Source: a virus
Virus record (IMG/VR): IMGVR_UViG_3300044608_001855
Location: 1 to 45,180 of that record
DNA: 45,180 bases
Reading direction: 5' to 3' (one strand)
A program made the translations under genes and the position numbers. The notes beneath the pieces were generated by a model. That model searched no databases. It was not told the origin of the DNA and was given only the letters and a program-made list of their open reading frames with translations. Below, one piece after another: positions 1 through 45,180 of this stretch (within the stretch, counting starts at the first letter, position 1; every line of letters starts with the position of its first letter).

Positions 1-1357
1 CGCCAGGAGGGGTGACCAGCCGGCAGAGGTAGGCCATCAGGTCGAGGGGCTTGACGGTGGGGTGCGTGACGCCTTGGCGCTCGGCCTTGGTGGCCTTGGC
101 GGTGTAGAAGAAGCGGGCGGCGCTGCCGGAACTCGGCGCCACAGTGTTCGGGGTGCGGTGCGGTGCGTCATTGCCGCGAAGGCCTTTGCGCATATTGGCG
201 CCCGCGTTCTCTCCGCCCCCGCTGGTGGTCACCGGAAACAACTCCACCACCTCGTCGCTGCCGTCGTGGATCAAATTGCTAGGCCATCTTCCGGCGGTCC
301 CGGCACTGCTGCTGTTGGATGCGGCGAGCCTCAAGCTCTTCAGCGCGGCTGTGATACTTGCGCTTGTGATGGCTGATGTGCTCGGGCACTGGCATGAGTT
401 CCAAGTTGCCCAGTCGATTGTCTGTCTTGATGCCGTTTCGATGATGGATGCAATGTCCGTCAGGGATTGTGCCGTTGGCATCCTCCCAAACTCGCCTGTG
501 CTCGAACTGGTAGACGTACTTCCCGTCTTCGTTCCATCGCAGCATCCAGTAACCGGCCTGCAGGTAGCGGGTTGGGGACTGGCGGCCTTTGCGCTCGTCG
601 TCGGCCCTGCAGCCTCGACCGCAATAGACAGGCAGTGCTCCAGTTCTGTGAGTTTGTCGCTTAGCGCCGCAATAGCGGCAGACAAAAAGGCGCGGTTCCT
701 TTGTTCTTCCCATTCACGCCCCCCTGGCGCGATTGATGGCTTAATTCTACAGGCATCCACGTTAATAGCCCCGGTGCCAAACTCCAGAACGTTTGCCGCC
801 ACAGTCCGCCCGCCCAAAGGTTTACGGGCAACCGTCACGGGCTCAAATGATGGTTTAATCGCCGTGCCCCAGCCGGCCCACTGCTGGGCTTCGGGGGTGG
901 CGGGGGCGGTGATGGCTGCACCTTGTTGCCCAATCCTTTGCCACCCGTCATCGTTCATGTTCTGGTTCATGGCCAGCCTACAGGTTGGGTCAAATCCCAC
1001 CACCTCCCGCTCCGCCCCCGCCGCCTTGTCGATCGCCTTCGACACATCCAACGACTTCGGAAATCCCGACCCATAAACCCAGGCGATCATGTCCCTGATC
1101 TCAAAGCCCGCGTCCTCAATCCGAACCGCCATTCGATGCTGCGTCCTGGTCCCGGCAAACGCCAGCAGATGGCCGCCAGGCTTGAGCACTCGCAGGCACT
1201 CGGCCCACACCTCCACGCTGGGCACGTCGTAATCCCACTTCTTGCCCATGAAGGCCAGCCCGTAGGGCGGATCGGTCACCACCGCATCAACGCTGCACTC
1301 CGGCATGGTGCGCAACACTTCCAGGCAGTCGCCCAGGTGCAGTGTGTGGCTTGTCAC
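1..1357 (-). CDS. DNA methyltransferase (N4/N6 amino type), left copy, 3' end cut by window
   Basis: Transfers a methyl group to exocyclic amino groups of DNA bases; probably protects phage DNA from host restriction. Starts at GTG 1357, overlapping the helicase stop (GTGA). The catalytic motif DPPYG is at residues 29-33. A VYGSGFPKSLD stretch typical of phage methylases lies near residue 110, and GTGAINVDACRI follows near residue 195. The C-terminal part carries GRWPSNLIHDGS and HPTVKPLDLMAYLCRLVTPPG; the FxGxG motif expected next lies beyond the window edge but is visible in the right-end copy. DPPY before FxGxG is the beta-type motif order. Read codon by codon, the frame has no stop from 1357 to 1, although a complete HNH gene occupies 279-713 in another frame. 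The ~145 residues encoded by this frame across the HNH region are Ser/Thr/Ala-rich and do not look like methylase. Whether the protein is active with this insert is unknown. Confidence 0.85.
   Translation of the reverse strand, partial: MTSHTLHLGDCLEVLRTMPECSVDAVVTDPPYGLAFMGKKWDYDVPSVEVWAECLRVLKPGGHLLAFAGTRTQHRMAVRIEDAGFEIRDMIAWVYGSGFPKSLDVSKAIDKAAGAEREVVGFDPTCRLAMNQNMNDDGWQRIGQQGAAITAPATPEAQQWAGWGTAIKPSFEPVTVARKPLGGRTVAANVLEFGTGAINVDACRIKPSIAPGGREWEEQRNRAFLSAAIAALSDKLTELEHCLSIAVEAAGPTTSAKAASPQPATCRPVTGCCDGTKTGSTSTSSSTGEFGRMPTAQSLTDIASIIETASRQTIDWATWNSCQCPSTSAITSASITAALKSLRLAASNSSSAGTAGRWPSNLIHDGSDEVVELFPVTTSGGGENAGANMRKGLRGNDAPHRTPNTVAPSSGSAARFFYTAKATKAERQGVTHPTVKPLDLMAYLCRLVTPPG
279..713 (-). 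CDS. HNH homing-type endonuclease nested inside the methyltransferase gene
   Basis: A 144-residue protein. An N-terminal zinc-finger-like module has Cys12, Cys15, Cys31 and Cys35. It is followed by an aromatic stretch (YWMLRWNEDGKYVYQFEHR) and an HNH_3-type core with HCIHHRNGIKTDNRLGNLELMP and a trailing HISHH. Such proteins nick or cut DNA to spread their own gene (homing) in phages. The gene lies wholly within the methyltransferase, in a different frame on the same strand, between the CRI and GRWP segments that are near neighbours in ordinary methylases. Its stop TAG (281-279) overlaps methylase codons. No intron is needed to explain the arrangement, because the outer frame stays open. The basic C-terminus (RRIQQQQCRDRRK) fits DNA binding. 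A second, partial copy lies at 45079-45180. Confidence 0.87.
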   Translation of the reverse strand: MGRTKEPRLFVCRYCGAKRQTHRTGALPVYCGRGCRADDERKGRQSPTRYLQAGYWMLRWNEDGKYVYQFEHRRVWEDANGTIPDGHCIHHRNGIKTDNRLGNLELMPVPEHISHHKRKYHSRAEELEARRIQQQQCRDRRKMA

Positions 1358-2826
1358 AGTCCTGCCCCCACCACACGAGCACGCGGCGCCCTGCTCCGCC
1401 ACCTCTGCCTCAGGCTGATTTTCATCCGAGCCCAACCCTCCGGAGACTGATAACCCCTACGCTGGCCCAAGGCGATCAACTCTTGCAGGGTCTTGCACGC
1501 CCGCTCCTCCTTCTCCCGAGCCTTCTGGGCGGCCAGCTTCTCCGCCTCCACCTGCTGGCGGATGGCCTCCCGCGGATCCAGCTCGATCAGTTCCCCCGGA
1601 ATTACCGTCACCCCCAGAGGCGTCCTCACCTCCTGATGGTGGCTGCACTCCTGGCACACCCCCCGGACGACATCGGAGCTGTAGCACCGTTGACACACCG
1701 GCACGGCTGCCACCCGCGCCAGCGCCCGCTTCTGGCGGCCAGCGTCCAGGTCCCACAAGTGCATCCGCCTGACCAGTGGGCTCCCCAACCCCTCCCGGCG
1801 AGTGTTGCCCACATGATCCAAGATCAGGCAGTCAGGCCAGTTCTGGGCCTTCCTCATCCCTCTCCCGCACATCTGAAGCCACACCCGCAGGGAGATCGTT
1901 CGCCGCTCGCAGAGGATTGCAGCCATCTCCGAAATGTCAACTCCCGCCAACCACATGTCAGCCGTGGCAACCAGATCAAGCAGGCCGCCGTTGAGGCCAT
2001 CCTGCGCCGCGCGACGCTCTCCCCTGGAGCTGTCACCAGAAATTGCCACGGCTCGGTAGCCGGCCTCCCGCCACCGCTCGGCCAGCCGCTCCGCAGCCGC
2101 CACCCCAGAGCAGAATGCACCTGTCGGGCGGATCCTCCCGTCCGGCTCGATGCACAGGCGCCTCCAGTGTTCCAGCGAATCCCCGAGGATCATTGGGCGC
2201 GACATCACATCACCAGCCGCCACCTGGTCAATGTCATCCCCCCGGCGACGAACAGCCAGCAGCTCTGCGGGGGGCGGGAACGAAAACAACCTCACCCGGG
2301 TGAGCCGACCGGCCTCGATCAGGTCCACCGTGTCCGATGTCGGGATCAGGCAGTCGAACCCGCCATCCGTCATCGGGCGACCGTCCGCCCGGATGGGCGT
2401 TGCGGTGATGCCAAGCATTAGCGGGCGATCCAAGGCATCAAGCACGCGCTGATAGGTGGGCGCCACCGCCAGGTCACACTCGTCAATGATCACCAGATCA
2501 GGCGGCACCAACCGATTTAGGCGCCGGGCAGCCGTGGCGACGCTCACAATGTGAACATGGGCCGGGCGAGTGGGCATGCTCCCCCAGATCCAGCTGAACG
2601 CTATCTGGGCCTCCTCCAGTCGGGCGGCGGTTGCATCCAGCAGCGAGTCCAGGTGAGCGAGGAACCAGACCGCCTGGCCCTGCGCAATCCGGCGGCGGAT
2701 GATCTCAGCTGAGACAAACGTCTTTCCCCAGCCGGTGGGCGCCACCAGCACGGGCGCCCGGAAGCCATCGGCAAACGCCTGATCCACCCGCTTGAGAGCC
2801 TCCAGCTGATCCGGGAACAACCCCAC
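1354..2826 (-). CDS. SF2 DEAD/DEAH-type DNA helicase
   Basis: ATP-driven superfamily 2 helicase, about 490 residues with the GTG start at 2826, which overlaps the upstream stop (TGATGTG). An in-frame extension up to 3054 lies inside the upstream gene and looks like noise (Pro/Ser/Arg-rich), so it was rejected. Motif I APTGWGKT is at about residues 28-36, motif II (VIIDECD) near 112, motif III (GITATP) about 30 residues later, and motif VI (QMCGRGMRK) near 317. A Cys pair pattern CQRC...CQEC near 377-395 suggests a zinc ribbon after the second RecA-like domain, followed by a charged helical tail. Its end overlaps the methyltransferase start by four bases, so the two are probably translationally coupled. 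Likely role: unwinding or fork remodelling in phage replication or recombination. Confidence 0.88.
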   Translation of the reverse strand: MGLFPDQLEALKRVDQAFADGFRAPVLVAPTGWGKTFVSAEIIRRRIAQGQAVWFLAHLDSLLDATAARLEEAQIAFSWIWGSMPTRPAHVHIVSVATAARRLNRLVPPDLVIIDECDLAVAPTYQRVLDALDRPLMLGITATPIRADGRPMTDGGFDCLIPTSDTVDLIEAGRLTRVRLFSFPPPAELLAVRRRGDDIDQVAAGDVMSRPMILGDSLEHWRRLCIEPDGRIRPTGAFCSGVAAAERLAERWREAGYRAVAISGDSSRGERRAAQDGLNGGLLDLVATADMWLAGVDISEMAAILCERRTISLRVWLQMCGRGMRKAQNWPDCLILDHVGNTRREGLGSPLVRRMHLWDLDAGRQKRALARVAAVPVCQRCYSSDVVRGVCQECSHHQEVRTPLGVTVIPGELIELDPREAIRQQVEAEKLAAQKAREKEERACKTLQELIALGQRRGYQSPEGWARMKISLRQRWRSRAPRARVVGAGL

Positions 2827-2827
2827 A

Positions 2828-3091
2828 TCAGGCCTCCCCTGGCGGGTCCGGGCGGCGCAGCGCCGGGGGGTGAAGAGTGGCCACCTCCTGGGACTCGTTC
2901 TTGAACAAGGCGGCGATGGCCTCTGCCGTGGTGGCAGGATCCAGGATCTGAAGCTCTGCCGCGAGGTGTTCGAGCGCGGCACGGGCGAGGAGCTCCATCC
3001 ATTCTTCCGCAGGGCAAAAGGGAGCTTGATATATGTAGCGCTCCTCCAGGGCATTGGTCAGGCGACCGCAGACGGTTGTCAGATCAGACAC
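2828..3091 (-). CDS. Small early protein, unknown function
   Basis: An 87-residue protein starting at GTG 3091, overlapping the end of the dCTP deaminase gene by eight bases and ending directly against the helicase start. It is mostly helical and amphipathic (EEWMELLARAALEHLAAELQ), with no Cys cluster or membrane segment. I recognise no family. Tight overlap on both sides and a plausible composition argue that it is real, not a helicase extension. Confidence 0.7.
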   Translation of the reverse strand: MSDLTTVCGRLTNALEERYIYQAPFCPAEEWMELLARAALEHLAAELQILDPATTAEAIAALFKNESQEVATLHPPALRRPDPPGEA

Positions 3092-3692
3092 GAGCCGTCA
3101 CCACAACCTGGGCCTGGTTTTGATATTTCCCCTGGCGATCCTCATAGGTGGTCTCGCACGGCTCCCCCTCGAAGAACAACGCTTGCACGATGCCTTCGCA
3201 GGCATAGATCCGGCAGTCACTATTGGAAGAGTTGGACAGCTCCAGAGTGAGGTGGCCTTGCCATCCGGCTTCCCCTGGCGTGAGGTTGGCAATGACGCCA
3301 CAGCGAGCGTAAGTCGATTTTCCGATAAAGAGACAAGTAATGTTGCTTGGGATTTTTATGCACTCCAGTGCAACACCTAGGCCATAGCTGTGAGCTGGGA
3401 GGATAAAGAATTGTCCATCAATATCTTTGTGCAGCCGCACAGTCTCCAGGTTTTCATCACTGAAGTTTTTGGGGTTTATTACAGTCCCAGGGATTCGGCG
3501 AAAAATCTTGAACTCCTTGGGCGACAGGCGGATGTCATAGCCATAACTGGAGCAGCCGTAGGAGAGCACCCTGTATGGGGGCTGCAAGCCGAGTGGGTGC
3601 CTGTAATCCACTTCCCGCACAAGCCACGGTTCAAACGGGTAGATCATGCCAGCGGCGGCTTGCTCGCGAATCCAGCGATCAGACTTCAACAT
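3084..3692 (-). CDS. dcd: dCTP deaminase
   Basis: Deaminates dCTP to dUTP, feeding dTTP synthesis; phages carry it to adjust nucleotide pools. The 202-residue length is normal for the family. The signature GKSTYARCGVIANLTPGEAG at about residues 121-137 matches the Dcd active-site region (Arg of the SxxAR motif; Glu of the TPxE motif, here TPGEAGWQGH). The C-terminal phosphate-binding segment reads ACEGIVQALFFEG...YEDRQGKYQNQ. Dcd and the bifunctional deaminase/dUTPase are close relatives; I cannot exclude dUTPase activity, and no separate thymidylate gene is visible. It starts at ATG 3692. A motif shared with the Rad52-like gene lies 21-38 bases upstream. The gene is AT-richer than its neighbours. 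Confidence 0.93.
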   Translation of the reverse strand: MLKSDRWIREQAAAGMIYPFEPWLVREVDYRHPLGLQPPYRVLSYGCSSYGYDIRLSPKEFKIFRRIPGTVINPKNFSDENLETVRLHKDIDGQFFILPAHSYGLGVALECIKIPSNITCLFIGKSTYARCGVIANLTPGEAGWQGHLTLELSNSSNSDCRIYACEGIVQALFFEGEPCETTYEDRQGKYQNQAQVVVTARV

Positions 3693-3712
3693 AAGAATTG
3701 TTCAGATAAAGG

Positions 3713-3730
3713 GCATCCTACCATAGACTC
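3713..3730 (-). promoter_or_regulatory. Promoter-like motif shared with the Rad52-like gene
   Basis: The plus-strand string GCATCCTACCATAGACTC recurs with one mismatch at 42766-42783. Read on the minus strand it gives TATGGTAGGATGC about 20 bases upstream of the dcd start, the same distance as at the other site. TATGGT could serve as a -10 box, with a weak CTGCCA 17 bases further upstream as -35. Only the shared string is certain. Confidence 0.5.
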
Positions 3731-3754
3731 TTGAGGAGATGTGGCAGGCATTAC

Positions 3755-3928
3755 TTGAAAACCGATCAGATCAACATCAGGCTCCCGGCTGATCTCCTGC
3801 AATGGCTTGACGACCACTGGCAGGAGATCGTCAAAACCCCCGCCAGAACCGGCAAGCAGGGGCATCGTGCGCGGGCGATCGAAGAGCTGATCCGCCAGGG
3901 GCGGGACCGGCTCAAAGCACATCATTGA
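3755..3928 (+). CDS. Small ribbon-helix-helix-like DNA-binding protein
   Basis: About 57 residues from TTG 3755; the frame is open from TTG 3731, so the start is uncertain. The pattern is that of CopG/Arc-type repressors: a beta strand (QINIRLPADLLQWLDD), a helix, a basic loop (PARTGKQGHRAR) and a second helix (AIEELIRQGRDRLKAH). It is the only plus-strand gene in this part of the leftward operon and is divergent from dcd, so a role as local regulator of the 3692-3755 promoter region is plausible. Its 3' end overlaps the next minus-strand gene by 17 bases. Two similar small plus-strand genes occur at 7910 and 9268. Confidence 0.62.
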   Translation: MKTDQINIRLPADLLQWLDDHWQEIVKTPARTGKQGHRARAIEELIRQGRDRLKAHH

Positions 3929-4112
3929 TCGTGTCGGACAGCACGCAGAGGTGGGCGTGCGTGCCGCAGACCAGGCGGCGCGTCGCAATCGGGAGCAACT
4001 TCCAGAGCTCAGTGCCTTGTAGATCTCTGATCGCATTGACAATCTCAAGGGAGGAATTCTGAGCCTCAATAAGATCGTCCTCGGTGGATTCGGAGAAGTT
4101 GAGCGGTTCCAT
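3912..4112 (-). CDS. Small early protein, unknown function
   Basis: A 66-residue protein starting at ATG 4112 (MEPLNFSESTEDDLIEAQNS), directly after the first copy of the duplicated 60-base leader. An upstream in-frame extension runs through that leader and is rejected because the leader copy at 4958 is read in another frame. The N-terminal half is acidic; the C-terminal half contains RRLVCGTHAHLCVLSDTI. No family recognised. It ends convergently with the small regulator at 3755-3928. Confidence 0.62.
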   Translation of the reverse strand: MEPLNFSESTEDDLIEAQNSSLEIVNAIRDLQGTELWKLLPIATRRLVCGTHAHLCVLSDTINDVL

Positions 4113-4115
4113 GGT

Positions 4116-4176
4116 GCGAGTGGGTGGGGGGCGGAACCTCTCGGCTCCTGTCCCCACAATGTAACCCAAGCCGGAC
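4116..4176 (-). repeat. Duplicated 60-base leader, copy 1
   Basis: Sixty-one bases matching 4958-5017 with one substitution and one extra G. It sits immediately upstream of a small ORF start and downstream of a zinc-finger gene, as copy 2 does. On the minus strand it contains TTGGGTTACATTGTGGGG and an AGGAG string, so it may hold a promoter or an RNA leader. GGCT and AGCC flanks could pair. Confidence 0.8.
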
Positions 4177-4203
4177 GCCATGACCACCAGGGGAGGGGTC
4201 TGT

Positions 4204-4419
4204 TCACGATCTGTCACGGTTCCGGGCCCGGCGCTTCCGCTCTGCCTCCGCAGCTTTCCCGGCTGGCGTGCGCTGCCAGCACGCGAAACACCACGGCAGA
4301 GTTCGGGTGCCGCGCACCGCGCGACCGCACCGCTCGCACCGTGGCAGCGGCAGCTCTCCCACCCGGCGCAGGCGCTGACGGTAGCGGGCCACCTTCTCCC
4401 GGCTGGACTGGCGGGTCAC
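4204..4419 (-). CDS. Small zinc-finger-like basic protein, paralogue of 5045-5263
   Basis: A 71-residue, Arg-rich protein with two Cys pairs, CERCG at residues 28-32 and CFAC at 44-47, followed by a basic helix (AAEAERKRRARNRDR). The four-cysteine spacing suggests a zinc ribbon that binds nucleic acid. The protein at 5045-5263 has the same plan (CLVCG...PWCSQCWQGT...RMRRKRRA), so the two are paralogues. The start ATG 4419 overlaps the preceding stop (ATGA). It is followed by leader copy 1. Function unknown; a DNA- or RNA-binding regulator is the best inference. Confidence 0.72.
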   Translation of the reverse strand: MTRQSSREKVARYRQRLRRVGELPLPRCERCGRAVRGTRTLPWCFACWQRTPAGKAAEAERKRRARNRDRS

Positions 4420-4667
4420 GCTCTGACCACCTCCGGCCAGTGGATCTGCAGCTCACGGGCGACGACTCCCATTGCTTGCTCTTTGCTGGGGCAGTGGTCA
4501 ATTCGAACGCCTTCATAGCCCTGGTCAGGCCTTGGGCGAATGACGCCCTGCCAGTAGCCGTCAGCATCCGGCTGGGGGGCAACCGCAGCAATGCAGGTTC
4601 CCCAGTCGTCGAACACGGCCCAGGCGGTGGGCGACTCAGGGTGGGGCTGCCAGGCGGTGGAGGTCAT
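4416..4667 (-). CDS. Small early protein, unknown function
   Basis: An 83-residue protein from ATG 4667. It is rich in Trp and His (TAWAVFDDWGTCIAAV; YWQGVIRPRPDQGYEG; IDHCPSKEQAMGVVAREL). The strand pattern suggests a small alpha/beta fold. No known family recognised. It is coupled by ATGA to the zinc-finger gene downstream, and a GC-rich hairpin (4688-4704) lies just upstream of its start. Confidence 0.72.
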   Translation of the reverse strand: MTSTAWQPHPESPTAWAVFDDWGTCIAAVAPQPDADGYWQGVIRPRPDQGYEGVRIDHCPSKEQAMGVVARELQIHWPEVVRA

Positions 4668-4687
4668 AAGGGAGAGAATGAGTTGTT

Positions 4688-4704
4688 GCCGGATAGGCTC
4701 CGGC
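4688..4704 (-). promoter_or_regulatory. Intergenic GC hairpin, member of a three-copy family
   Basis: Stem GCCGGA/TCCGGC with a five-base loop, flanked by GTTGTT on one side and GG on the other. It lies between the stop at 4719 and the start at 4667. Near-identical stem-loops occur at 43631-43648 and 44168-44186 in the same gene-to-gene position. Confidence 0.55.
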
Positions 4705-4718
4705 GGGCCAGGGGGTGC

Positions 4719-4952
4719 TCAGGACAGGCGGGCAATCCACTCGGGTGACGCAACGGACCAGCCAATTCGATCGTCACACTTGTCTAAAAGTGAATGAACT
4801 GCGCGAAATGATCCATCGGCCATGACAGCAACATAATGCTGTCCCCAGCGCGTATTTTCAATGTCGCAAATTTGACCCAGCTCTGGGCAAAAGCCATCAT
4901 TTGCCAAGAGCATGGTGCCAATGGGCAGGCTGAGAGTTGTTTCGGCGGGCAT
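4719..4952 (-). CDS. Small early protein, possible SH3-like fold
   Basis: A 77-residue protein starting at ATG 4952 (MPAETTLSLPIGTMLLAND), right after leader copy 2. The sequence is beta-rich (LGQICDIENTRWGQHYVAVMADGSFRAV), with alternating hydrophobic strands like a small SH3-like barrel; that is only an impression. The longer frame to 5000 reads through the duplicated leader and is rejected. No family recognised. Confidence 0.62.
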   Translation of the reverse strand: MPAETTLSLPIGTMLLANDGFCPELGQICDIENTRWGQHYVAVMADGSFRAVHSLLDKCDDRIGWSVASPEWIARLS

Positions 4953-4957
4953 GGCTG

Positions 4958-5017
4958 GCGAGTGGGTGGGGGCGGAACCTTTCGGCTCCTGTCCCCACAA
5001 TGTAACCCAAGCCGGAC
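4958..5017 (-). repeat. Duplicated 60-base leader, copy 2
   Basis: Sixty bases matching 4116-4176 with one substitution and one base fewer in a G run. The flanking coding sequences are far more diverged, so the identity implies recent recombination or a conserved regulatory role. It lies between the zinc-finger gene 5045-5263 and the start of the gene at 4952. Confidence 0.8.
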
Positions 5018-5044
5018 ACGGCTGTCAGCACCCTGCCCGACAGT

Positions 5045-5263
5045 TCACATTCCGTCACGTGCCGCCCTCCGCTTCCGACGCATCCGCTCGCGATTCACCT
5101 CCCGCCCCTCCTCCGTCCCCTGCCAGCACTGCGAGCACCACGGCGCCGTCCAACGCGACCGCACCTGACTGCCACACACCAAGCAACGCGCTGGCCCGCC
5201 TGGATCCGCCTGGCCGCGGCGTCGAGCTCGCAGGCGCCGCATCCGCTCGGTGCTGGTGGTCAT
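5045..5263 (-). CDS. Small zinc-finger-like basic protein, paralogue of 4204-4419
   Basis: A 72-residue protein. The N-terminal helix is basic (RMRRLRARRR), followed by CLVCG and CSQC pairs at about residues 27-31 and 43-46 and a basic tail (RMRRKRRAARDG). It shares the order Cys pair, PWC..CW, then a basic helix with 4204-4419, and each gene is followed by a copy of the same 60-base leader. It is coupled by ATGA to the preceding gene at 5260. Probably a small nucleic-acid-binding protein; exact role unknown. Confidence 0.72.
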   Translation of the reverse strand: MTTSTERMRRLRARRRGQADPGGPARCLVCGSQVRSRWTAPWCSQCWQGTEEGREVNRERMRRKRRAARDGM

Positions 5264-8143: not shown

Positions 8144-9169
8144 CTACACCGGACAGCAGACGCGGAAACCACCGCCGGGGCCGCGAGCGAACGGGAGTTT
8201 CCTGAGGCGGCAAGCCGAGCGGCCGTCCTGAAGTAGGGACATCCAAGAACCGCCGCGCAGCAGCCTTTCCTTACCGCTCTGTTCACCATCCAAGCCTTCC
8301 CCATCCACCCAAGCCCTCCCATCCGTGGGGGCTCCCTCGTAGCTGTCGTGCCAATGATCCAGGCACCATTCCCACACGTTCCCGTGCATGTCCCGCAGAC
8401 CCCAGGCGTTGGCCGGGAACATCCCCACGGGTGTGGTTTGCCCCCGATCCTCATCCTTGGCACCGTAGGCATAGGTGTTCGCCAGGTCGCTGCTGATCGT
8501 CGCGCCAAAGTGAAATGGCGTCGTCGTGCCCGCGCGGCAGGCGTATTCCCATTGCGCTTCGCTCGGCAAGGTGTAATGCTCCCCGGTGCGCAACTGCAAC
8601 CTGCGGCAGAAGGCCATTGCCTCGTTCCAGCTGACATTGACAACCGGCTTGCCGTCGCCCCGGAACCGCTCAGGCAAGCCAACCAACGGATCGGGATTCA
8701 GCTCCTCCTCGCACTCCTTTCGCTCCCACTGCGCAACAGCCCGCCACTGGGCCTGGGTGATCAGGTTGCGACTCATCAGGAAAGCTTGCAAGTTCACCTG
8801 ATGCTGAGGGCCTTCGTCGTCATCCCTCCCCGCCTCCCCCGGGGGGGAGCCCATGAGGAAGCGGCCGGCGGGGATCTTAACCATCAAACAACTCCACGGC
8901 TGGCGTGTCGCTTTATCCATATTCATGGTTGAAAGCGACACGCCAACTGTCGGGTTGTTCGTCTTTCGCGCGTCTGCCACCACGGACTCCCAGCTCCGTG
9001 TGAACAGATCTGACACCAGCTGGCCCAAACCGTGCAACCCCCGCGCATCGGCGACGCTGTGCCAGCCCGGCAGCAGCTCCAGCGCTGCGGCAGCACGAAG
9101 GGCAGTCAAGGTCTGGGACTGCTGGTCAGGCGGTTGCACCGGGGTGAAGGTCGGCTCGGTGGGGTCCAT
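8144..9169 (-). CDS. SUMF1/FGE-sulfatase-domain protein (C-type lectin fold), possible variable protein
   Basis: 341 residues. Residues about 95-340 match the SUMF1 family: MVKIPAGRFLMGSPPGEAG near the domain start, ITQAQW, PVVNVSWNEAMAFCRRLQ, LPSEAQWEYACRAGTTTPF, DMHGNVWEWCLDHW and a final RLLRGGSWMSL...GGGFRVCC. In formylglycine-generating enzymes two active-site cysteines lie between GGSW and the final GFR; here that stretch (SLLQDGRSACRLRKLPF) has a single Cys, so catalysis is unlikely. This fold is a common target of diversity-generating retroelements, where the GGSW...GFR region varies. No reverse transcriptase or template repeat is visible here. The first 95 residues are of unknown type. 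Possible roles: ligand-binding adhesin or host-interaction protein. It has its own terminator at 8069-8108. Confidence 0.85.
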   Translation of the reverse strand: MDPTEPTFTPVQPPDQQSQTLTALRAAAALELLPGWHSVADARGLHGLGQLVSDLFTRSWESVVADARKTNNPTVGVSLSTMNMDKATRQPWSCLMVKIPAGRFLMGSPPGEAGRDDDEGPQHQVNLQAFLMSRNLITQAQWRAVAQWERKECEEELNPDPLVGLPERFRGDGKPVVNVSWNEAMAFCRRLQLRTGEHYTLPSEAQWEYACRAGTTTPFHFGATISSDLANTYAYGAKDEDRGQTTPVGMFPANAWGLRDMHGNVWEWCLDHWHDSYEGAPTDGRAWVDGEGLDGEQSGKERLLRGGSWMSLLQDGRSACRLRKLPFARGPGGGFRVCCPV

Positions 9170-41525: not shown

Positions 41526-42040
41526 TTGATGCTCCAAGAAAGGCGCTCCTCAATGCGAGCGCCGGGGACAGGGTTGCCGGCTTTCAGCGCGGCCTTGATG
41601 TCGGTTTTTGACACGATTGTCTCAGTTCGTGTCTTTTTGAATGCCGCCGGGAGTTCATCAATCGGCACGTCGATGACGACAGCCTCTGACTTGCGCCGGG
41701 CGACCGTGTGGCCCGCCAGCTTCCAGGTTCTCTGGTCTGGCGCCACCTTGGCCATCGCACGGCTCAGGGTGTTGAGCAGCCGCTCGGCTTGCCGCTCATC
41801 CTCGGCGGCCATAGCCATGAGCCGTGCGGCGTGCTCCCTCCGGGTGGCGGCAGATGCCAGGTAGGCATCCCTGGCCCAGCAATAGCCATCGGCCTTCTGG
41901 AAGAAGGCGTCAAGGCCATCGGCCTCTGCATTGAGCAGGGCCGATAGATCTTCATCGCCGGCGTCCGGACTCTCCGCTAGAGCCATGACCTGCTGCTGGA
42001 GGGAGATCAGCTCCCCCGTGAGGGCGAAGAGGTTAGCCAT
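41522..42040 (-). CDS. Siphovirus Gp157-family protein
   Basis: 172 residues from ATG 42040. The layout is that of Gp157: N-terminal MANLFALTGELISLQQQVMA, a long helical region (AATRREHAARLMAMAAEDER), then a beta segment (WKLAGHTVARRKSEAVVIDV) and DELPAAFKKTRTETIVSKTD with IKAALKAGNPVPGARIEER. The family commonly lies next to SSB and annealing genes in siphoviruses. Its mechanism is not well defined; a DNA-metabolism accessory role fits. Confidence 0.87.
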   Translation of the reverse strand: MANLFALTGELISLQQQVMALAESPDAGDEDLSALLNAEADGLDAFFQKADGYCWARDAYLASAATRREHAARLMAMAAEDERQAERLLNTLSRAMAKVAPDQRTWKLAGHTVARRKSEAVVIDVPIDELPAAFKKTRTETIVSKTDIKAALKAGNPVPGARIEERLSWSIK

Positions 42041-42746
42041 TGAGTTCCTCAACTGTTGTGGGCTTGATCCCGTGTTGAATCAGCGTCTGCAGGGTTTGAT
42101 CTGGCACGTCGCTGAGGGATTCGGTGGTGCCGAACCTGAGCGCGAACTGGGCGATCCCATAGGGCGTCAGGCCAGCCTGTGCCAGGCGTGCTGTGGCTTG
42201 CTCGACCAGCGGGGGGGGCCCGGTTACGTCCACCGTGCTGGCGGGCGCTGGCGCCGGGGCAGGAGCGGGAGCGGGCACACCCACCTCCCGCTGTTGTTTG
42301 TCGTAGAGCGCCAGGCCTAGGGGATTGCCGAAGGTCATCAGGGCACGCTTCATGGCGTCAGTCTCGGCCTCCTTGATCGCAGACTCATGAGCCTGGCCTA
42401 GATCCGCGTCGATGCCGTGGCCAGCGCCGGTCCCGTCGCGAACAATCGTGCGATCACCAGCCTGAACCGTGATGCGAACCCTGGCGACGTAGGTGACGCC
42501 CCAACCATCGCGCCCATCACGGCCGATCTTTCGTGGGGCCTCTGCAGCAACGTTGAGCCATAGTGTCTCTCGCTGCCACGAATCAAAGCCGAAGATCCTG
42601 TTGGCTTCGGCAATAGCGTGCCAACCTTCGATATAAGAAACTCTTGATCTGCCTTGCTCGCGGGTTTTTACATGACGTGGATCAAGGGGGGCCTGTAGCT
42701 GCTGAATTTGCTCAGGCGAGAATCCATTGTGCTTTGGCGGGTCCAT
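42033..42746 (-). CDS. Rad52/22-like single-strand annealing protein
   Basis: 237 residues. Residues about 20-150 match the Rad52-type annealing core: YIEGWHAIAEANRIFGFDSW, WGVTYVARVRITVQAGDRTI, GTGAGHGIDADLGQAHESAI and KEAETDAMKRALMTFGNPLG. A Pro/Ala linker (PAPAPAPAPA) leads to a helical C-terminus. It pairs complementary single strands in phage recombination. With SSB, Gp157 and the VRR-NUC nuclease it forms a recombination module. The motif shared with dcd lies 20-37 bases upstream. Confidence 0.9.
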   Translation of the reverse strand: MDPPKHNGFSPEQIQQLQAPLDPRHVKTREQGRSRVSYIEGWHAIAEANRIFGFDSWQRETLWLNVAAEAPRKIGRDGRDGWGVTYVARVRITVQAGDRTIVRDGTGAGHGIDADLGQAHESAIKEAETDAMKRALMTFGNPLGLALYDKQQREVGVPAPAPAPAPAPASTVDVTGPPPLVEQATARLAQAGLTPYGIAQFALRFGTTESLSDVPDQTLQTLIQHGIKPTTVEELNG

Positions 42747-42765: not shown

Positions 42766-42783
42766 GCATCCTACCATAGATTC
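42766..42783 (-). promoter_or_regulatory. Promoter-like motif shared with dcd
   Basis: GCATCCTACCATAGATTC, one mismatch from 3713-3730. Minus-strand TATGGT could be a -10 box, and GTCACA 17 bases upstream a partial -35. It overlaps the stop codon of the VRR-NUC gene. Confidence 0.5.
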
Positions 42784-43163
42784 AGGCCTAGTATCTGTGA
42801 CGCCTCTTCTATACTATGCGCCACCCCTGCAAGGCCGCCAGCGGCGTTCACCTGGGCGATGAAGTTGAGTTGCTGTTCGCTGGGCTCATCCTGATCCTTG
42901 ACCTCTACACCGACAAACTGGGCGATTGTCTGCCCCACCATGGCGGGAGTAATCACTACGGAACGCCAGCCGATAAGGTCTGACGTTCCCGGCAGGATTC
43001 GGCTACCGGAAGACCCGAGCCCATAGCTCAGGAAGCCGCCGGACGGCGTCTTCCATGCGCCGACGTTGTTGCGGAATAGGCGAACCGGGCCTCGGTTCAG
43101 GGCTCCCTGGATCTCCGCCTTGACATTGTCCTCCCTGCTGGGCTGGCGGGGCTGGCGGGGCAT
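42771..43163 (-). CDS. VRR-NUC domain nuclease
   Basis: 130 residues, a typical length for phage VRR-NUC proteins. Active-site pattern: GALNRGPVRLFRNNVGAWKT, SRILPGTSDLIGW with the first acidic residue, and FVGVEVKDQDEPSEQQLNFI with the E.K signature, then AGGLAGVAHSIEEA. Likely a structure-specific nuclease or Holliday-junction resolvase acting on recombination intermediates. Starts at ATG 43163. Confidence 0.9.
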   Translation of the reverse strand: MPRQPRQPSREDNVKAEIQGALNRGPVRLFRNNVGAWKTPSGGFLSYGLGSSGSRILPGTSDLIGWRSVVITPAMVGQTIAQFVGVEVKDQDEPSEQQLNFIAQVNAAGGLAGVAHSIEEASQILGLNLW

Positions 43164-43658: not shown

Positions 43659-44120
43659 TCACCATGAAACCATGCGACTAGACCATTGCTCAAGAATTAT
43701 CACCTCTAAAGCCCCGCAAAGAAATATCTGATCACAACTCCACCCCTTTTTTATTAGGTCCCATCTTGTCTTTTTTGCGATGCCTTTCGTAGGAAACCAC
43801 AAATGTCGGTTTCCATTGTTGAAAGAAAAACCTTTCCTATTACCATGCGTAACAGCTTTGCGCATGAAATCATATCCTAAATCACCCGCCAAGTCCGCCA
43901 AAGCGGCTGGCAAACTTTTAAGAAAACGTTCTAAGATAGGATCACGCTTTGAAAAGTGGTCTTCTGTTGCTTCGTATTCTTTTTGAGCAAAAGGAGCGGC
44001 ACACTTTTCTAATAGAAGTTTAGTTTTTTCTGACCGCTCTCCGATGTAGATATCGTGGCCGGGAAGTTTCCCGATCAAAAAGTTTTTACGGGAAACAATT
44101 GTGTTAGTTGCGGTAGCCAT
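43659..44120 (-). CDS. AT-rich, Lys-rich early protein of unknown function
   Basis: 153 residues from ATG 44120 (MATATNTIVSRKNFLIGKLP). Lys- and aromatic-rich (SEKTKLLLEKCAAPFAQKEY; YDFMRKAVTHGNRKGFSFNN; RHLWFPTKGIAKKTRWDLIK). Base composition is clearly AT-richer than the flanking genes, a sign of separate acquisition. The pattern suggests a folded alpha/beta protein, but no family recognised. Confidence 0.65.
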   Translation of the reverse strand: MATATNTIVSRKNFLIGKLPGHDIYIGERSEKTKLLLEKCAAPFAQKEYEATEDHFSKRDPILERFLKSLPAALADLAGDLGYDFMRKAVTHGNRKGFSFNNGNRHLWFPTKGIAKKTRWDLIKKGWSCDQIFLCGALEVIILEQWSSRMVSW

Positions 44121-44167
44121 GATTTGCAAAGCGATGGATTGTGAATGGTGTGTGGGGATAGGTTGTT

Positions 44168-44194: not shown

Positions 44195-44509
44195 TCAGTC
44201 GATCTCGACCATGCTGGGCCAGGCCGCCGTCGTGCAGTCGTAGGCCGCCTCCAGGGCTGGCCGGAGCTGTTCGGTCGAAACCCGGATTGTGCCGCCCTCC
44301 GTGGGCCAGTCGTGCCAGCCGCAGCCGACGGCGGTCTGGTTGAGGATGTCGTCAACAGTGGGGATGATTTCGTCCATTTCAGTAATGTGCGCAATCCGCT
44401 CGTCGATTGACATGGCGTCAAACTCCTCGTCGGAAAATGCCATATCAGGATCGACATAGGTGCGCCAGGCATCCAGGCTGGTGGCGGCTTGAAAAACACT
44501 GGTGTTCAT
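44195..44509 (-). CDS. Strongly acidic small protein without lysine
   Basis: 104 residues from ATG 44509. Very acidic and Lys-free (YVDPDMAFSDEEFDAMSIDE; HITEMDEIIPTVDDILNQ), with a Trp-rich middle (GCGWHDWPTEGG). Such charge is typical of DNA-mimic or inhibitor proteins, which is only a possibility. It lies next to the methyltransferase gene. No family recognised. Confidence 0.65.
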   Translation of the reverse strand: MNTSVFQAATSLDAWRTYVDPDMAFSDEEFDAMSIDERIAHITEMDEIIPTVDDILNQTAVGCGWHDWPTEGGTIRVSTEQLRPALEAAYDCTTAAWPSMVEID

Positions 44510-44636: not shown

Positions 44637-45180
44637 TCACAGTCCCAGGCCCAGCTGGGCGCCGTTCATCCTGTGCTCAGCCATGGCGAAGTAGGCCGGA
44701 TCACGCTCGATGCCGATCGCTTGGAAGCCCTCGCTCAGGGCAGCCTTAATCGTGGTGCCACTGCCCATGAACGGGTCCAGCACGATTCCGCCAGGAGGGG
44801 TCACAAGGCGGCAGAGGTAGGCCATCAGGTCGAGGGGTTTCACCGTGGGGTGGGTGACTCCCTGGCGTTCGGCGCGATTGGCCTTGGCCGTGTAGAAGAA
44901 GCGGGCGGCGGAGCCGGAGTCGCCCGCGTAGGCGAAGTTGGACGGCATGCTTAAACCAGTGCCAGACATGATGTTGGTGGCTTTGCCGGCTTTTCTGGTC
45001 GGGTTGATGCTCGCCCCGCCGTTAGTCGTTTGCGGAAACAACCCCACCACCTCGTCGCTGCCGTCGTGGATCAAATTGCTAGGCCATCTTCCGGCGGTCC
45101 CTGCATTGCTGCTGTTGGATGCGGCGAGCCTCAAGCTCTTCAGCGCGGCTGTGATACTTGCGCTTGTGATGGCTGATGTG
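44637..45180 (-). CDS. DNA methyltransferase, right copy, 5' end cut by window
   Basis: Carries the methylase C-terminus: GRWPSNLIHDGSDEVVGLFP, SARFFYTAKANRAERQG-type segment, HPTVKPLDLMAYLCRLVTPP and LDPFMGSGTTIKAALSEGFQ (FxGxG motif), ending in a short tail. It matches the left copy at about 86% in the first 130 aligned bases, and the middle (44920-45040) is much more different, with a 12-base length change. The frame stays open to the window edge through the HNH coding region, as in the left copy. Same function as the left copy; a continuation of the gene or a second cassette cannot be told apart here. Confidence 0.85.
   Translation of the reverse strand, partial: TSAITSASITAALKSLRLAASNSSNAGTAGRWPSNLIHDGSDEVVGLFPQTTNGGASINPTRKAGKATNIMSGTGLSMPSNFAYAGDSGSAARFFYTAKANRAERQGVTHPTVKPLDLMAYLCRLVTPPGGIVLDPFMGSGTTIKAALSEGFQAIGIERDPAYFAMAEHRMNGAQLGLGL
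44789..45180. repeat. Near-repeat of the window start (1-380)
   Basis: Two blocks: 44789-44918 against 1-130 (about 18 mismatches by eye) and about 45028-45180 against about 228-380 (three mismatches noted), with a divergent stretch between. It could mark the overlap of a circular genome or a real duplication. Confidence 0.8.
45079..45180 (-). CDS. HNH endonuclease, right copy, C-terminal part
   Basis: The last ~33 codons of the HNH gene, ending TAG 45081-45079. Two base differences from 279-380 are both synonymous in the HNH frame, while one changes Ser to Asn in the methyltransferase frame. The rest lies outside the window. Confidence 0.8.
   Translation of the reverse strand, partial: HISHHKRKYHSRAEELEARRIQQQQCRDRRKMA

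Follow-up and report, generated by a model that had tools for sequence, protein, structure and literature searches.

An HNH endonuclease gene lying out of frame in mycobacteriophage methylase genes has been described as the 'ShiLan domain' (Arsenault et al. 2025, PMC11855218). Systems of the ShiLan type are also cited to Gosselin et al. 2023 (PMC9957025), and Applejack provides a further example of an out-of-frame HNH in a methylase (PMC12613952). For ShiLan, no ribosome-binding site (RBS) was found and leaderless initiation was proposed; the translation of the hidden HNH and the meaning of the open host frame were left open (PMC11855218). An insertion in gp60 of Pacc40 (PMC11855218) is also an out-of-frame HNH-like open reading frame (ORF) within a phage methyltransferase (MTase), but by its published description it lies in a different MTase family and has AP2-domain proteins among its matches.

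The window analyzed here, 45180 bp long, is the whole of IMG/VR virus record IMGVR_UViG_3300044608_001855. Near its left end, an HNH endonuclease ORF (279-713, minus strand; 144 aa, ATG start, TAG stop) lies entirely within an MTase ORF. It is read at offset 2 to the MTase, which is the third frame, and the MTase frame continues through the insert without a stop. The HNH ORF belongs to HNH_3 (PF13392, E=2.4e-14; 53.1 bits against a curated cut-off of 24.8) and the surrounding phage methylase ORF to PF01555. Neither an intron nor an intein was detected (Rfam, Pfam), and the element is common to diverged methylases. By its sequence, the contig element is a ShiLan-type hidden HNH, and its nested arrangement with an open MTase frame is of an already published kind.

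ShiLan shares with the contig a third-frame HNH in a phage MTase of the same family, a host frame without stops, the lack of a detectable intron or intein, an element less diverged than its host gene, I-HmuI as the best match in the PDB and a 3′ junction at a place where invaded alleles have Ser (or Thr). It differs in coming from an actinobacteriophage rather than a cyanophage-like phage, in its HNH subfamily and in the RBS, which is evident in the contig element. The two elements are not of one lineage: the insertion site is NVDACRI/GRWPS in the contig and KPSYEP/ARKPL in ShiLan, and the contig HNH, used as a query among cultured phages, gave no mycobacteriophage match at E 1e-5. New relative to ShiLan are a second MTase site, another predicted HNH subfamily and an apparently cyanophage-like genome.

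In the Cylindrospermopsis phage Cr-LKS3, the 'DNA methylase' gene (OM373202, L006 in our collection; CrLKS3_g59, 2405-4255) contains an unannotated third-frame HNH at 2926-3414. Its mode (third frame, open host frame) and its MTase family are those of the contig element. However, Cr-LKS3 and many IMG/VR loci have an element of the ShiLan lineage at the ShiLan site, and the Cr-LKS3 HNH is 49% identical to that of ShiLan. This shared site and identity make Cr-LKS3 a relative of ShiLan, and the contig element a sister type at another site.

One methyltransferase gene in two versions at the contig ends

Because the record is that of a complete virus contig, its ends are true contig ends and not an arbitrary cut; it is classed as 'linear', with no end repeat found. 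A search with positions 44700-45180 against the whole contig gave exactly one other match, at 1-380, with 79% identity over the overlap. The ends are thus not identical and do not form a direct terminal repeat. Positions 1-380 and 44789-45180 represent the same MTase locus in two allelic forms.

The left allele (2-1435, minus strand; PF01555, E=1e-12) extends from the N-terminal part through the insert with the HNH into the beginning of the C-terminal part; its frame is open throughout and runs off the left end. Its start is probably the GTG at 1357, which overlaps the stop of the helicase gene (GTGA). The right allele (44637-45180, minus strand; PF01555, E=4.7e-19) comprises the C-terminal part with a DPFMGSG motif, nests the last 34 HNH codons including the stop, and terminates at 44637. 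Joining the two at 381/45180 (1435-381 + 45180-44637) resulted in a single intact MTase ORF with DPPY and DPFMGSG motifs. Since each half matches PF01555 and both DPPY and DPFxGSG are present once the ends are joined, the product is classified as an N6/N4 DNA methyltransferase.

Divergence between the alleles is uneven. In the MTase core, 1-121 against 44789-44909, 16 of 121 positions are mismatched (13.2%), 12 of these 16 at third codon positions. The variable loop of the MTase (~122-232, ~110 bp, with indels) is essentially unalignable between the alleles. Beyond it, 233-380 and 45033-45180 differ at 3 of 148 positions, and the HNH-coding part (279-380) at 2 of 102. Neither of these two mismatches, at positions 302 and 306, changes an amino acid in the HNH frame; in the MTase frame, one of them turns Ser into Asn. 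Counted by codons, third positions differ in 12 of 40 MTase codons, while 2 of 34 HNH codons differ, both synonymously. Against the MTase core, the lower divergence is supported for the HNH (Fisher, p = 0.002) and for the whole tract (p = 0.0005). Near-identity extends ~46 bp past the HNH stop into the MTase (GRWPSNLIHDGSDEVV).

A preliminary description of this contig had reported that the right end repeats the left start and that the HNH parts differ at 2 of about 100 positions, both HNH-synonymous and one non-synonymous in the outer frame; both statements hold. Its figure of about 14% for the MTase agrees with the core but omits the unalignable loop, and its claim that the HNH is better conserved than its host gene is borne out by the counts, except that ~46 bp of MTase show the same low divergence. 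The comparison along both genes that it proposed as a check is the one given above.

The mostly third-position differences in the MTase core argue for two real alleles and not errors. Mis-extension typically happens at contig ends that lie in repeats, and the lack of an exact end repeat in IMG/VR could likewise point to a pure assembly artefact with chimeric ends and no second allele in the phage population. We consider such an artefact very unlikely: the differences look biological, with this bias towards third positions and both frames open, and the variable loop of the left allele has relatives elsewhere (L011 and L009 in our collection).

The left end of the contig carries a helicase gene upstream of the MTase (1354-3054, minus strand; ResIII, E=5e-17) and a dCTP deaminase gene (3084-3692); the right end carries a VRR-NUC-like gene (42771-43163, minus strand; VRR_NUC, 21.3 bits, below the cut-off). 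In two relatives found via the helicase (L181 and L182), the dCTP deaminase, the helicase and the VRR-NUC-like gene are directly consecutive, and the MTase is absent from the helicase/VRR-NUC-like junction. In L181, the VRR-NUC-like gene directly after the helicase shows 68% identity. As genes of the left and right ends are contiguous in these relatives, the two contig ends are neighbours in the genome. This is most simply read as a circular or permuted genome that the assembler opened at a point of difference between two MTase haplotypes of the population.

As an alternative, a genome with two MTase-HNH cassettes in tandem had been suggested; each contig end would then interrupt one of them. 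The contig does hold two distinct alleles, one copy ending at each end, but we give this arrangement only a slight chance. The genes of both ends are directly adjacent in L181 and L182, so that tandem cassettes are not needed, and the contig contains only two partial, complementary copies, which join into exactly one intact gene. The circular genome assembled from a mixed population, which had been set against recent spread of the HNH, is supported by the gene order in L181/L182 but is compatible with spread and not an alternative to it. Probably, the contig represents one circular or permuted genome that ends within one MTase gene at differing haplotypes and carries a homing HNH of the ShiLan kind.

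Among cultured phages, Synechococcus phage S-LBS1 has the closest terminase (46%), and this one gene suggests a picocyanobacterial host. Several other minus-strand ORFs were noted. A Rad52/Rad22 family annealing protein (42033-42746) could plausibly help recombination after a cut. A small protein adjoining the MTase (44195-44509) has a weak match to the anti-CRISPR AcrF31 (23.5 bits, cut-off 27). An ORF beside the MTase end (43659-44129) has no Pfam match, and its L182 homologue is 60% identical and in inverted orientation. A protein at 8144-9169 has an FGE-sulfatase domain; domains of this type are possible targets of diversity-generating retroelements.

A near-identical tract on diverged alleles

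In the left allele, the putatively mobile or co-converted tract spans 235-745 (minus strand) and consists of the HNH gene with ~32-33 bp upstream and ~42-44 bp downstream. Its 3′ part is found in the right allele at 45034-45180 (minus strand), within the region of 3/148 differences. Between the left allele and another IMG/VR contig (L003), the tract is 96.5% identical over 511 bp, while the MTase on either side is down to 60-85% or unalignable; identity of 93-100% is seen only from ~-33 bp to ~+42 bp around the HNH. The right boundary of the tract is identical in three comparisons (left/right, left/L003 and L003/right).

It is improbable that stronger purifying selection alone, without transfer, kept the HNH copies similar. 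The HNH frame is constrained (ratio ~0.34, see below), but silent HNH sites are also nearly unchanged, against 12/40 third positions in the MTase, and near-identity ends abruptly ~42 bp past the gene within the MTase, at the same place in the three comparisons. Recent shared ancestry of the tract, and not selection on the protein, explains this pattern. L003, which shares the tract, and the right allele, which shares its 3′ part, both with diverged flanks, support the suggestion that the HNH segment spread recently or underwent gene conversion. Homing with short co-conversion would be the best explanation of a ~510-bp tract on diverged MTase alleles, and the HNH gene is probably mobile. Neither an empty-site partner nor an exact donor was found among the fetched MTases, in which the closest HNH-less genes are 85-88% identical to the flanks over long stretches.

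Fold and insertion site of the hidden HNH gene

PF01844 was considered as the HNH family but had no match in the contig, where PF13392 matched instead. Among 13 HNH relatives, the pattern CxxC...CxxxC and the residues H90, H91, N93, N99, N103 and H112 are invariant. The AlphaFold model of the HNH (pLDDT 87) has I-HmuI (1U3E) as its best PDB match (E=0.01, probability 1.00, 75 columns); a sequence-profile search of the PDB with the HNH gave nothing at 0.01. No relative turned up in one scan of bacterial and archaeal genome contigs with the HNH profile. I-HmuI resides in a splicing intron, whereas no intron is seen around the contig HNH.

The insertion site lies between NVDACRI and GRWPSN. HNH-less relatives read NVDGCR-(variable linker)-GRWPANLIHDGS, and the HNH element occupies that linker. 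At the 3′ edge, the HNH stop codon overlies host Ser-Asn codons. GRWPS was found in 9 of the 11 invaded alleles at the NVDACRI/GRWPS site; GRWPxN-type matches in other loci (n=131) were GRWPA in 122 and had Ser in 4.

HNH endonucleases are common passengers of group I introns and inteins, and two distant cases (L005, L032) sit in terminase ORFs with inteins, but it is hardly credible that this insert belongs to a self-splicing intron or intein: an Rfam search of the contig at the gathering threshold gave no match and hence no ribozyme core flanking the ORF, a Pfam search of the MTase ORF gave no intein domain, the tract leaves only ~75 bp outside the HNH ORF, and the host frame is kept open, which an intron would not need. 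Nuclease activity, cutting and homing are predicted for the HNH, as is a tolerated loop in a working MTase.

Selection on the two reading frames

Substitutions were analyzed in 17 disjoint pairs; the selection ratios, like the E-values, are simple estimates. Differences at HNH codon positions 1, 2 and 3 numbered 458, 324 and 755. In the HNH frame, 47% of the changes were synonymous, where chance predicts 23% (ratio ~0.34). In the host frame they were 23% synonymous against 24% expected, giving a ratio of 1.07 that is confounded by the HNH frame. Neutrality of the host frame does not follow from this ratio, since most host-synonymous sites coincide with HNH first positions, which are themselves constrained. 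On these estimates, the HNH protein is under purifying selection, and selection acts mainly on the HNH frame. Strict dual coding, with both proteins conserved, was unsupported: by this confounded measure, the host frame has no amino-acid constraint beyond the absence of stops.

Host frames without stops

Loci were gathered from IMG/VR scans with two HNH profiles, by fetching with the MTase, and from cultured phages. The resulting 108 HNH-bearing sequences formed 73 groups at 80% nucleotide identity. An element was classed as nested when its HNH was located between MTase halves, without any zero-stop requirement. The host frame was open in all 38 such groups (36 at offset 2 and 2 at offset 1) and broken in none, against 1 of 25 groups of free-standing HNHs without a stop at offset 2 (p = 1.6e-16).

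At offset 2, nested elements had 0.00 stops per 100 codons (3.17 expected) and free-standing HNHs had 3.19; at offset 1, nested elements had 5.74 (6.08 expected). With stops missing at offset 2 and near expectation at offset 1, the depletion is specific to the host frame. The preference for offset 2 may stem from its expected stop density, about half that at offset 1. Zero stops at offset 2 were seen in the contig element, in L003, L004, L026, L088 and others, and ShiLan itself is at offset 2. A codon-permutation test of stop avoidance gave 1.24 stops expected per element, against 4.7 in a third-base model; the permutation test errs on the conservative side, since it shuffles codons that are already chosen against stops.

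The hosts were MTases in 53 of 60 scanned ORFs. In L005 (~2116-2664) and L032 (1718-2338), HNH ORFs are nested at offset 2 in terminase large subunit-like ORFs with an intein, and the frame is open. These two cases suggest that the hidden-HNH design is also used within inteins. Nesting at offset 1, not 2, was seen in L034, L080/L083, L144, L147 and L173. For L034, L080/L083 and L144, ~5.6 to 9.9 stops were expected and none was observed; for L144, L147 and L173, the host ORF was not matched to the PF01555-type MTase of this contig.

Translation of the hidden HNH gene

A Shine-Dalgarno (SD)-like AGGGGGG (719-725, minus strand) can be read directly 5 nt before the HNH ATG. Predicted anti-SD pairing for the cluster of the contig element is -10.2 kcal/mol, computed on L003, which has the same upstream sequence. 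Over the survey, predicted pairing with the 16S tail averaged -6.0 kcal/mol at HNH starts against -2.4 at internal ATG/GTG (p ~2e-9), and it reached -6 kcal/mol at 55% of HNH starts against 11% of internal ATG/GTG. SD scores were weak at some elements, such as L026, L116, L120 and L139.

In ShiLan (JN020143, L183; HNH match 4594-5097), GGAGG lies 4 nt before a GTG aligned with the HNH start, at the same place as in Cr-LKS3. This GGAGG was not reported in PMC11855218. Together with the predicted pairing at HNH starts, it makes internal SD initiation of the hidden HNH a likelier route than leaderless initiation.

Discussion

The comparisons above establish, at the level of sequence, the nesting, the open host frame, the stop avoidance, the constraint on the HNH frame, the SD sites, a tract whose copies resemble each other more than their flanks do, and one locus across the contig ends. 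In the mechanism that we propose, the HNH gene occupies a variable MTase linker in the third frame, has its own RBS and leaves the MTase frame free of stops. Made from the gene's own start, the HNH protein would cut an MTase allele without the insert, and recombination would copy the ~510-bp tract across together with short flanking MTase stretches. Ribosomes would still read the whole MTase, whose protein would retain the insert, unspliced, as an additional loop of ~145-150 residues. Lying in a second frame with the host frame open, the HNH could spread from phage to phage without breaking the host gene.

The contig holds the element on two MTase backgrounds and is therefore a natural pair for mapping the co-conversion tract. 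For annotation, many phage 'DNA methylases' harbour an uncalled, predicted nuclease gene. The loci gathered here make both the translation route of the HNH and the meaning of the open frame, the two points left by the ShiLan description, testable. We think it fairly likely that HNH genes hidden out of frame represent a widespread third means of invading genes without destroying them, next to introns and inteins. Splicing would be unneeded, as the host frame is stop-free and held mainly to staying open, and the HNH would have its own RBS. Such genes would have arisen or spread at several phage MTase sites and in terminase inteins, nearly always in the frame with fewer expected stops.
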